Part shown: positions 38,927 to 42,915 of the stretch, piece by piece
Layout: each line of letters starts with the position of its first letter
Numbering within the stretch: the first letter of the stretch is position 1
Assembly: GCF_008079445.1 (NCBI RefSeq)
Contig: NZ_VRYH01000004.1
Coordinates: 248,001-312,000 of the forward strand
From: Aidingimonas lacisalsi
GTDB taxonomy: Bacteria > Pseudomonadota > Gammaproteobacteria > Pseudomonadales > Halomonadaceae
Length of the DNA: 64,000 nucleotides
Direction of reading: 5' to 3'
Translations under genes and position numbers: made by a program
Notes under the pieces: generated by a model
Told to the model about the DNA's origin: nothing
Databases searched by the model: none
The model's input: the letters and a program-made list of their open reading frames with translations, nothing else

Positions 38927-39745
38927 TTACTGTCCTTGCAGTGCTTCAAGCTGTGCATTGAGAGCCAATTGGGATTGACGCAATTCCCTTAACTGATCCT
39001 GATTGTCTTCCACTTGTTGCTGCAACTCGCTCAAGCTCTGCTGACCGGTCTCTCGGCTATCCTCCAGCGAGCCTAGCCGTTCTTCCAGTGAACGAACGGA
39101 TGTCATCAGAGATGAAACGAGCACGTCCTGGGCAGTCTGCCGATCTTCCCACTGGTCCAACCGTTCTTGCCAAGCATCAAGGCGTTCCGTGTTATCCGCC
39201 TGCCGGCTTTCCAGTGTGGCACGACTATCTTCCCCGGCTTGCTCCAGAGCATTCAGTGACTCTCGGGTTGCCGCGACGATATCGCTCAGGGTCTGGTAAT
39301 CCTCGTCCATGCTTTCCAGGCGTTGGGTCAATTCAGCAAGGCGCTCTTGATCATCCTCGTTTCCTTCGACCGTATCGAGCCGATCCTGCTGATCGTCTAG
39401 CCGGCTTGTGAATGTCTGTTGTTCATTGGTCAGTGATTCCAACTGATCTTCGATATCATCCAGACCCGTGGTGCGCGTTTCATCGACGCTATCGAAACGT
39501 GCGTGAATGTTGGATAGTTGCCCTTCCAGCGCGTTGATATCACGCTGAAGCGTCTGATACACCTGCCAACCGACATACCCAAATCCCGACATGGTCAACA
39601 GGACGATAAGCAACAAGCACCACAATGGCCAGACCCTGGGTGACGGCGCATGACGCTGCCTAGGAGGGGGATGTGAGCCAAAACTGGCATCGGCATCAGG
39701 CACGATACGTGGGGTAATACGTTCTTCCTCCGGGCGCTCGGCCAT
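38927..39745 (-). CDS. Hypothetical single-pass membrane coiled-coil protein
   Basis: A 272-residue protein I do not recognise. Residues 1-40 are polar with prolines; 41-62 form one membrane segment; 63-272 are an unbroken, very acidic and glutamine-rich coiled coil (many QLESL, DRLDTVEG and LEDS heptads). That topology puts the coil in the periplasm. I chose ATG 39745, which follows CAGGAG by nine bases. It stops 14 bases before tamA, so it is probably cotranscribed with tamAB. A structural or tethering role in the envelope is inference. It diverges from the SOD gene. Confidence 0.7.
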   Translation of the reverse strand: MAERPEEERITPRIVPDADASFGSHPPPRQRHAPSPRVWPLWCLLLIVLLTMSGFGYVGWQVYQTLQRDINALEGQLSNIHARFDSVDETRTTGLDDIEDQLESLTNEQQTFTSRLDDQQDRLDTVEGNEDDQERLAELTQRLESMDEDYQTLSDIVAATRESLNALEQAGEDSRATLESRQADNTERLDAWQERLDQWEDRQTAQDVLVSSLMTSVRSLEERLGSLEDSRETGQQSLSELQQQVEDNQDQLRELRQSQLALNAQLEALQGQ

Positions 39746-39811
39746 AGAAAAGGACTCCTGTCCGGACAACGACTCTCGTGACGGTATGCACGATCGTAAG
39801 CAGGGAACGAC

Positions 39812-39839: not shown

Positions 39840-39975
39840 CCATGCTGCTACGATGTGGCGATCCGCCTTGCGCAGATAGTTGGTATTGTACGGTTTTTTA
39901 TGCCGGGTTCGGTAGCGGGTGGCAATTATCCATCAAAACATTCGTCTAGCAACGACTGATTCAGGAGTCGTCGGA

Positions 39976-40623
39976 ATGCCATTTGAATTACCCGCACTGC
40001 CCTATGACACTCCCTCGCTGGCGCCTTATCTATCCGCGGAAGCGATTGAGTACCATTACCGGCACCATCATGGGGACAGCATCAAAGCACTCAATCGATT
40101 GACTCACGCAACCTCCCGGGCCGATTGGTCTTTGGAGACACTCCTACTTCAGTCAACGGGAGCGCTGTATGAACATGCCGCCGATGCCTGGAATCACACC
40201 TTTTTCTGGCACTGTCTTTCTCCCTTCGGCGGCGGTAGACCCAATGCATCTTTGCTCAATGACCTGGAGTCGGCTTTTGGCAGTTTCGAAGGCTTTCAGC
40301 ATGCCTGCACCACCTGTGCTCATCGTCATGTCGGCTCTGGTTGGCTCTGGCTGGTCAAATCATTCGATGGCGAGCTTGCCGTGCTCTCCACAGACGACAA
40401 CGATACGCCACTGACTCACGGCTTGACGCCACTCTTGGCGATCGACCTCTGGGAACACGCCTATTACCTGGATTACGTGAGAAACGGCGATCACTTGACC
40501 GCCTGTCGTCGGTATATCGACGCATTGTGGCACATCGTCAACTGGGAATTCGTTGCCCTGAACTCGGACTCGCCATTCGTGGGCCATTACCCGGGATCGG
40601 CTCGACGTCCAATGCCACGGTAG
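39976..40623 (+). CDS. Divergent Fe/Mn superoxide dismutase homologue
   Basis: A 215-residue protein with the Fe/Mn-SOD fold. Ligands His27, His74, Asp157 and His161 are all kept (EYHYRHHH, WNHTFFW, DLWEHAYY). Against E. coli SodB, however, the gateway tyrosine (Tyr34) is Ser35 here, and the active-site glutamine (Gln69) is Asp70; the alternative Mn-type glutamine position is asparagine in DDNDTPL. These residues tune proton delivery and redox potential, so activity may be low or different. The second-shell His31 is kept. ATG 39976 follows AGGAG. Its end overlaps the ugd-like gene by 37 bases, tail to tail. Confidence 0.85.
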   Translation: MPFELPALPYDTPSLAPYLSAEAIEYHYRHHHGDSIKALNRLTHATSRADWSLETLLLQSTGALYEHAADAWNHTFFWHCLSPFGGGRPNASLLNDLESAFGSFEGFQHACTTCAHRHVGSGWLWLVKSFDGELAVLSTDDNDTPLTHGLTPLLAIDLWEHAYYLDYVRNGDHLTACRRYIDALWHIVNWEFVALNSDSPFVGHYPGSARRPMPR

Positions 40624-41879
40624 CTTAAACCGCTGGCCGCGACATAGTCCGGGTCGTAGATATTGCGACCATCAAGTATCAACCGCTCAGTGAGCTCTTT
40701 GCGCAGACGTCGCCAGTCCGGATTCCAGTACAGCTTCCATTCAGTCACCAACATCAGCGCATCGGCTCCCTCGCATGCTTGATAGGGATCATCCTCGAAT
40801 ACCGTGAGCAATGGGTGGTTGCCAACGTCGCTGATCAGCGCAGGGATGGCTGCAGGATCGTGCAACTGCACCTTGACGCTTTGTGCCCAGAGCGCTTTCA
40901 GCAACGTCAATACCGGCGCATGATCGATGCGAGCCGTGCCCGGTTTGAACGCCGCTCCCCATATGGCAATGGTTCGTCCTTCCAACTGCCCTTGGAAATA
41001 GGCCCACAACTTTCTGAAAAGCGTTTCCTTCTTGTGCTCGTTGATGTCCAGGACGCGTTCAAGAAGCACCGAATCTCGTCCACTGGCCGATTGTACATCG
41101 GCCAGACGCATCAAATCGCGTGAAAAGTTGGGACCGCCGAAACCGCACCCCGGATAGAGATATTCGTAACCGATACGAGAATCCGCCCCCATTCCTCGGC
41201 GCACTTGTTCGACATCCACGTCGAGGGAATCCGCCAGCCCTGCGACCTCGTTCATGTAACTGATACGCGTAGCCAGCATCCCGTTGATCGCCAGCTTCGT
41301 CAGTTCGGCAGCACGACGCGACATGCATTGAAACACATCGGCACGGCGGTTGAAGGCCCGCAACAACTCGCGAACTTGACGTTCGGCCTCGTCATCCTCG
41401 CACCCCAGCAACCAGCGTTCCGGTCGTGTAAATACCTGCCATGCCCGCCCCTCTTCAATCATGTCGGGTAATGCGACGGCCACCTGCCCTGCATGACCGA
41501 GTGACGCTTCCAGGCGTTCGGTATCGCCTACAGGAAAGGTCGAATTATTGATCACGACCAGCGGGCTGGTCTGCGAATCAGCCAGCCGGGCAACACAGTC
41601 TACGGCGCTATGGCGCTGATCGGGCGCTAACGCCAGCCACAGGACATCATGGTCAACGGACGTTGCGGCCAAGGATTCGACAATCGCCAGATCCCGGGAC
41701 GCGATGGCCGAATCGATTTGTTCGAGTAGCGAGGGTTCCCGTGTGAGCCAACTCGCTTCACGCAACGACGACCATGGCGTGTCCGGGTGGGGATACCAAT
41801 TGACGCGATGACCGACACTCGCTAACGCTGCCGCCGCTGTAGCGGCCGATAGCTCACTGCCATGAACGATAACTCTCAT
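40587..41879 (-). CDS. UDP-glucose dehydrogenase homologue lacking the catalytic cysteine
   Basis: A 430-residue UDP-glucose/GDP-mannose dehydrogenase family protein. The fold is clear: a VINNSTFPVGDTERL strand, AELTKLAINGMLATRISYMNEVAGLAD with Lys195 and Asn199, and GAAFKPGTARIDHAPVL. But the active-site segment is GFGGPNFSRD, with Asn251 where the family has the nucleophilic cysteine, and Arg254 in place of the usual lysine. The N-terminal NAD motif is GSELSA rather than GxGxxG, and the usual EFLREG is DMIEEG. It starts 3 bases after the galU stop, so substrate (UDP-glucose) is made next door. Probably a pseudoenzyme, a binding protein, or an enzyme of different chemistry. Confidence 0.88.
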   Translation of the reverse strand: MRVIVHGSELSAATAAAALASVGHRVNWYPHPDTPWSSLREASWLTREPSLLEQIDSAIASRDLAIVESLAATSVDHDVLWLALAPDQRHSAVDCVARLADSQTSPLVVINNSTFPVGDTERLEASLGHAGQVAVALPDMIEEGRAWQVFTRPERWLLGCEDDEAERQVRELLRAFNRRADVFQCMSRRAAELTKLAINGMLATRISYMNEVAGLADSLDVDVEQVRRGMGADSRIGYEYLYPGCGFGGPNFSRDLMRLADVQSASGRDSVLLERVLDINEHKKETLFRKLWAYFQGQLEGRTIAIWGAAFKPGTARIDHAPVLTLLKALWAQSVKVQLHDPAAIPALISDVGNHPLLTVFEDDPYQACEGADALMLVTEWKLYWNPDWRRLRKELTERLILDGRNIYDPDYVAASGLSYRGIGRRADPG

Positions 41880-41882
41880 GAT

Positions 41883-42773
41883 TCATGTCCTGGCCGCGTA
41901 ACGGGTCAACAAGTCATCGAACTCAGTGCCGTATTTCGGATGGCGTTTAGCGAATGCCAGGATGGCCTCAAGGTAACCCAATTGATGACCGCAATCGTAG
42001 GTCTCGCCTTGCATGCGATAGGCCGATACGCCGGTCTCGCTTCTCAAACTGTCAATGGCATCCGTCAACTGGATTTCATCACCAGCCCCGGGGGGGGTCT
42101 GGGCCAGTATTGGGAATATGGCGCCAGGCAACAAGTAGCGACCTATCACCGCCAGCGTTGATGGTGCATCTTCCACGGCAGGTTTTTCCACCATCCCGAT
42201 CAGAGACGTCGACTTGCCTGGTTCGAGGCCCGGTTCATCCAGCTCGACGATCCCGTACTTGTAGACAAGTTCACGGGCGACGTTCTCGACCATCACCTGA
42301 GCTTGCCCGCTAGTTTCATAGGCTTCGATCATACCGGCCAGATCGTTTCTCGACATGCCATCGTCGTCTACGAGAACATCCGGCAAGAGTACGGCGAAAG
42401 GGTCATCGTCACCGACAATGGGGCGTGCACAGAGTACCGCATGCCCCAGACCGAGAGGTTCGGACTGGCGAATGCTGATGATCTTGACGTCATCAGGGAT
42501 GATGTTGCGTAACGCGTCCAGCAAGTCGGTCTTCCCTTTCGCTTCCAGCGTACTCTCAAGTTCGAAATGCTTGTCGAAGTGATTCTCGATGGCCCCCTTG
42601 CTGGAATGAGTCACCAGAATGATTTCCTTGATACCCGCTTCGACAGCTTCTTCCACGACATATTGAATGACAGGCTTGTCGACGATCGTGATCATTTCCT
42701 TGGGAATGGCCTTGGAGGCAGGCAGGCAACGCGTGCCAAAGCCCGCGACGGGAAGTACGGCCTTGCGAATCAT
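41883..42773 (-). CDS. galU: UTP-glucose-1-phosphate uridylyltransferase
   Basis: Makes UDP-glucose from UTP and glucose 1-phosphate, for envelope polysaccharides and trehalose-type solutes. The 296-residue protein has the nucleotidyltransferase signature VLPVAGFGTRCLPASKAIPKEM, then QYVVEEAVEAGIKEIILVTH, DDDPFAVLLPDVLVD and GMVEKPAVEDAPS. I chose ATG 42773, with AAGGA upstream. It is the first gene of a galU-ugd-like pair and diverges from ubiG. Confidence 0.95.
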   Translation of the reverse strand: MIRKAVLPVAGFGTRCLPASKAIPKEMITIVDKPVIQYVVEEAVEAGIKEIILVTHSSKGAIENHFDKHFELESTLEAKGKTDLLDALRNIIPDDVKIISIRQSEPLGLGHAVLCARPIVGDDDPFAVLLPDVLVDDDGMSRNDLAGMIEAYETSGQAQVMVENVARELVYKYGIVELDEPGLEPGKSTSLIGMVEKPAVEDAPSTLAVIGRYLLPGAIFPILAQTPPGAGDEIQLTDAIDSLRSETGVSAYRMQGETYDCGHQLGYLEAILAFAKRHPKYGTEFDDLLTRYAART

Positions 42774-42915
42774 GACGGATCCTTGCATTGCGGTGTATGT
42801 ATGGAGAAATTATGCCACAGCCTGACTGGCGACTCTTCCACACAAACGGAAACATCGCGGGTAGAATGAGTCTGTCATAGAATCGAGAACCTGAATCTCA
42901 GCGTAGAGGCCTATC

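Follow-up and report, generated by a model that had tools for sequence, protein, structure and literature searches.

A gene of the UDP-glucose dehydrogenase (Ugd) family is found directly behind galU in the window (the whole 64,000-nucleotide stretch of DNA analysed here), and it raises the question of what such a protein does without the catalytic cysteine and the NAD motif of its family. The initial annotation had proposed a UDP-sugar-binding pseudoenzyme, a regulator of GalU or an enzyme carrying out a single-step reaction. The gene, P0001, begins 3 bp past the stop of galU (gap 41880-41882), as had been read, and this galU is the sole copy found in the genome (Table 1). Membership of P0001 in the UDP-glucose/GDP-mannose dehydrogenase superfamily by descent is clear. 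It passes the generic nucleotide-sugar-dehydrogenase model TIGR03026 (201.8 bits, cut-off 189.8), and PF00984 (92 bits) and PF03720 (76.9 bits) both score above their cut-offs. The nearest solved fold to its AF2 model (pLDDT 92.3) is the BceC Ugd 2y0d, with a TM score of 0.93, and BceC-type proteins are also nearest by sequence. A DNA-binding or other output domain was not found in the domain search of P0001.

Table 1. Features of the locus and diagnostic residues of P0001 (positions in the window)
Feature	Position	Strand	Basis
Ugd-family pseudoenzyme gene P0001	40587..41879	-	430 aa, ATG start, frame intact
galU, UTP-glucose-1-phosphate uridylyltransferase	41883..42788	-	TIGR01099 337.8 bits, cut-off 326.8
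Residues 7-12 GSELSA, in place of GxGxxG dinucleotide motif	41844..41861	-	alignment with clade
Residues 139-144 DMIEEG, in place of EFLKEG/EFLREG	41448..41465	-	direct reading
Lys195 (human UGDH Lys220), kept	41295..41297	-	K 116/117
Arg235 (human Arg260), kept	41175..41177	-	R 117/117
Asn251 (AAC) at catalytic-cysteine position	41127..41129	-	0 Cys in 119 distinct clade members
Asp319, canonical Ugd Arg (human Arg346)	40923..40925	-	D in 102/117 clade members
Fe/Mn superoxide dismutase gene	39919..40623	+	
Gene for conserved protein of unknown function	38927..39769	-	

In a tree of 53 proteins, built by a quick method without bootstrap and with some long branches, the degenerate proteins form one clade (SH-aLRT 100) separate from canonical Ugds. 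Independent degeneration in several lineages is thus unsupported. The active-site stretch of P0001 reads G248-G249-P250-N251-F252-S-R254-D255. The spacing between Lys195 and Asp255 equals that between Lys220 and Asp280 of human UGDH; the numbering differs by 25 throughout, which makes Asn251 the counterpart of the catalytic Cys276, Asn199 that of Asn224 and Arg235 that of Arg260. The missing cysteine, which the initial annotation had seen directly, is a clade-wide state: all 119 distinct members read are without it, namely 117 scored proteins plus L108 (N251) and L133 (G251), which the Trp criterion of our script had misplaced. The asparagine itself, whose conservation the initial annotation had recommended checking, is not constant: residue 251 is N in 81, S in 22, G in 8, A in 4, T in 1 and H in 1 of the 117 scored members. 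A sequencing error at this codon is excluded, because AAC lies at least two base changes from a cysteine codon (TGC/TGT) and a non-Cys residue is found in 119 of 119 members. The nearby Cys245, suggested earlier as a substitute nucleophile, had to be dropped. It is an ordinary Ugd residue, present in canonical Ugds as well (PGCGYGGSCFPKD; 33 of 37 canonical rows, once the degenerate L108 and L133 were moved out of that set), and some clade members carry Ile, Thr, Ser or Val in its place.

The NAD half has been altered further. Within the GSELSA segment, E9 is present in 89, L10 in 111 and A12 in 109 of 117 clade members, where canonical Ugds have G9, Y10 and G12. Around the second altered motif P0001 reads P138-D139-M-I-E-E143-G144; both replacements had been recognized correctly at the outset. 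Besides the GxGxxG glycines, the clade has lost the beta2 acid (P30 here), Tyr10 (now Leu) and a two-residue GT loop, which is deleted. The BceC paper reportedly gives Tyr10, in its title, a part in thioester hydrolysis. Canonical D317/R319 has become R317/D319 in most members, and we take human Arg346 and Lys279 to be contacts of NAD. P0001 lacks the NAD domain of a functional Ugd, with its GxGxxG and beta2 acid, as seen from E9, A12, P30, the deleted GT loop and the PF03721 score, which at 25 bits falls just below the cut-off of 27. Positions invariant in canonical Ugds are kept or lost in the clade at 11/27 in the N domain, 30/13 in the central domain and 21/6 in the C domain. That is, 27 of 38 are lost in the NAD half versus 19 of 70 elsewhere (Fisher p=1.5e-5, N domain versus rest), for an invariant set defined on 15 canonical Ugds of one bacterial order and excluding positions of intermediate conservation. 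Across seven genomes that carry both copies, the degenerate one is most diverged in its N domain, where identity is 50% versus 70% in the canonical copy. Judged from these residues, the loss of dehydrogenase activity is well supported. Dehydrogenation by the clade is very unlikely because the cysteine and the NAD motif are absent and an acidic residue stands at canonical Arg319. The suggested single-step reaction fares no better as an oxidation, since oxidation needs NAD and the NAD motif is gone.

The loss is one-sided, and the UDP-glucose pocket is kept. K195, R235, K312 and R405, the counterparts of human Lys220, Arg260, Lys339 and Arg442, are found in 116-117 of the 117 scored members (Lys312 and Arg405 in all), and Glu143 in 111. 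The earlier statement that Lys195, Asn199 and Asp255 are retained stands for Lys195 throughout the clade, but Asn199 (92/117) and Asp255 (99/117) belong to the majority only. Human Lys339 and Arg442 presumably act in the UDP-glucose pocket. In human UGDH, Arg260 reaches the UDP-glucose in the partner subunit, and the role of Lys220 is taken from the same source (PMC3184952). Because the UDP-glucose residues and the trans-acting Arg235 are retained, P0001 is best read as a UDP-sugar-binding dimeric pseudoenzyme, its binding and dimerisation both being predictions. The same pocket could also serve a new enzyme that converts a UDP-sugar without NAD, via Lys195, Glu143 and mostly Asp255, as the near-invariance of the first two, the frequency of the third and the strong selection would allow. 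However, residue 251 varies among six amino acids and Asp255 and Asn199 vary too, which is unusual for an active site. Compared with canonical Ugd, the clade has gained no new conserved catalytic-looking residue; its gains are the near-invariant Trp292 and Trp385 together with Arg205, Tyr240 and similar. We regard a new enzyme as rather unlikely.

The gene is under strong purifying selection and is not decaying, in agreement with what had been deduced from its intact 430-codon frame. Pairwise dN/dS, taken between close relatives with unsaturated synonymous sites, is about 0.02-0.11, comparable to galU and ubiG. Relatives of P0001 across the family have intact frames and about 60-80% identity, the nearest named one being that of Aidingimonas halophila (80%). 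A decaying pseudogene or a sequencing error would account for the lost catalytic residues, and one C-terminally truncated copy exists: in the complete, single-contig genome G010 the frame of L108 stops after 372 residues, without the C-terminal part including the Arg405 region, which reflects either loss under way or a frameshift. Against this stand the intact frames and identities across the family, the low dN/dS and the single old origin; conservation and dN/dS rule out decay, and the whole explanation deserves hardly any credence. The protein is thus conserved, selected, devoid of the catalytic residues and distinct from active paralogs, as a pseudoenzyme should be, its inactivity being deduced from the residues. 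The proposal of a UDP-sugar-binding pseudoenzyme is well supported: the loss is one-sided, the clade monophyletic and deep, and dN/dS low.

Matches are found in 249 of 250 Halomonadaceae genomes at E<=1e-40 and in 236 at E<1e-100, canonical Ugds matching far more weakly (~1e-60 to 1e-85). The pseudoenzyme is apparently absent from the family genomes G016, G017 and G018. Scored with a profile built from the degenerate clade, members in the class sample reach at least 552 bits versus at most 493 bits for canonical Ugd. Among the best ~22 lower-scoring matches there, the cysteine is missing only from L167 (486 bits), a degenerate protein whose gene adjoins pgi. In the order sample the weakest among the matches listed score 503-531 bits and are assigned by score alone. 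By the criteria of profile score and cysteine reading, the clade is found in the family of the window, in f206, f217 and f223 of the same order and in f55, f104 and f156 of other orders of the class. In the phylum sample no clade member was found outside the order at the threshold used. A description of the clade was not found in the open-licence PMC literature.

A second, canonical ugd, which the initial annotation had recommended searching for, is present in the same genome (G000) on contig C9, with 231 bits to PF03721 and an intact GSCFPKD. A replacement of the organism's own Ugd by P0001 is thereby excluded. Another nucleotide-sugar dehydrogenase family member, L002 (G000:C27:84673-85191), scores 108.7 bits to PF03721. 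With its shared fold and well conserved central (dimer) domain, P0001 might join the cell's own canonical Ugd in a mixed oligomer, as its non-catalytic part. However, the two genes are unlinked here and the putative partner is not constant, because in about 45 of 250 family genomes the degenerate copy was the only match at E<=1e-40 and no TuaD-type canonical Ugd was found; the 20 of these that were checked carry only more distant dehydrogenase-family members. Such an oligomer is quite improbable.

The neighbourhood of the gene points to UDP-glucose synthesis. Some of the loci in our survey ended before the neighbouring gene came into view. Among the Halomonadaceae loci examined, nearly all have galU immediately upstream. 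The same holds in f223, where pgi then follows. In f55, f104, the outlying genera g3/g5 and others, the gene either stands last in the arrangement galU-pgi-gene or adjoins pgi. Neither galU nor pgi is found within about 1.5 kb of any of 37 canonical Ugd genes. The galU-ugd-pgi gene order was not found in the accessible part of PMC3720592. Linkage to galU and/or pgi at nearly every locus lends contextual support to the GalU-regulator proposal, by which the pseudoenzyme would bind UDP-glucose and feed back on the neighbouring GalU by contact. A dead protein regulating an active enzyme has a precedent in prozyme and AdoMetDC (accessible part of PMC5201418), but P0001 is not a paralog of GalU, unlike prozyme and its enzyme. 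Furthermore, galU is gone from the locus in G068 and G046, where the single GalU found is encoded at another place and shares 57-58% identity with that of the window. The pseudoenzyme gene remains intact there between ubiG and the orf280 homologue (L190/L209; L210), its product about 70% identical to P0001. A dedicated GalU subunit is less likely because the gene persists in these two genomes without a resident galU, and we consider this explanation unlikely. What the two loci favour is a role linked to UDP-glucose itself rather than to the GalU protein encoded next door.

On its other side the pseudoenzyme gene is convergent with the superoxide dismutase gene, whose 3' end overlaps it by 37 bp. 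This gene evolves faster than its neighbours and is absent from a few relatives, and its product reads AADAWNH where most relatives have AAQxWNH, an Asp for the Gln near the metal site. The gene of unknown function between sod and tamA, a placement found in almost all relatives, encodes a coiled-coil protein that likely has a single membrane segment.

The explanation towards which we lean, with slightly more confidence than doubt, is that P0001 is a non-oxidising, NAD-independent descendant of Ugd, a UDP-sugar-binding homodimer that would signal UDP-glucose supply. It keeps the predicted fold of Ugd and most likely binds UDP-glucose or a closely related UDP-sugar in homodimeric form, each sugar being touched by Arg235 of the opposite subunit. 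The N-terminal domain has ceased to be suited to NAD. Ligand occupancy may alter the closure between the N and C domains and in this way signal UDP-glucose supply to a partner; the supply read would be that provided by GalU, encoded by the next gene, and Pgi, clustered with it in other families. The protein is probably a UDP-glucose sensor, sensing being the most economical role, with a presumed signalling step. More tentatively, and with doubt somewhat outweighing confidence, we envisage an undescribed clade of UDP-glucose receptors, Ugds stripped of NAD binding and catalysis, through which halomonads and several other gammaproteobacterial families would inform the control of envelope or growth about UDP-glucose supply at the galU/pgi branch point.

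Automatic annotation likely names the clade proteins dehydrogenases because they pass the generic TIGR03026 model, a label that is almost certainly wrong. A conserved pseudoenzyme that binds UDP-glucose, encoded beside GalU and Pgi, would offer a testable point of control over the use of UDP-glucose in envelope glycans, exopolysaccharide and the osmotic response of industrially used Halomonas. Since the clade has a clean sister group that is active, one can follow, one residue at a time, how NAD binding was lost while substrate binding was retained.

Among known systems, GlmR/YvcK belongs to a different protein family from Ugd. As a functional analogy, this UDP-sugar-binding protein of Bacillus is reported to tune the pathway that makes a sugar nucleotide, although it binds UDP-GlcNAc and acts on GlmS (accessible part of PMC7525490). 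OpgH and UgtP, which mediate UDP-glucose-dependent size control, are active glucosyltransferases that act on FtsZ and are unrelated to P0001 (accessible part of PMC3723540). As far as these sources go, both analogies demonstrate no more than that sugar nucleotides serve as signals in cells. GalF (TIGR01105, a GalU regulator family) is alike in its proposed role around GalU, but GalF is a GalU paralog whereas P0001 is a relative of Ugd. The TuaD/BceC-type Ugds (2y0c-2y0e, TIGR03026) are the true homologues. P0001 differs from them in having no catalytic Cys, GxGxxG, beta2 acid or GT loop, with Leu for Tyr10 and Asp for the Arg346 equivalent; it shares with them homology over the whole length (about 35% identity, TM 0.93), the three domains including the central dimer domain and the UDP-binding domain, and Arg235, Lys195, Lys312 and Arg405.
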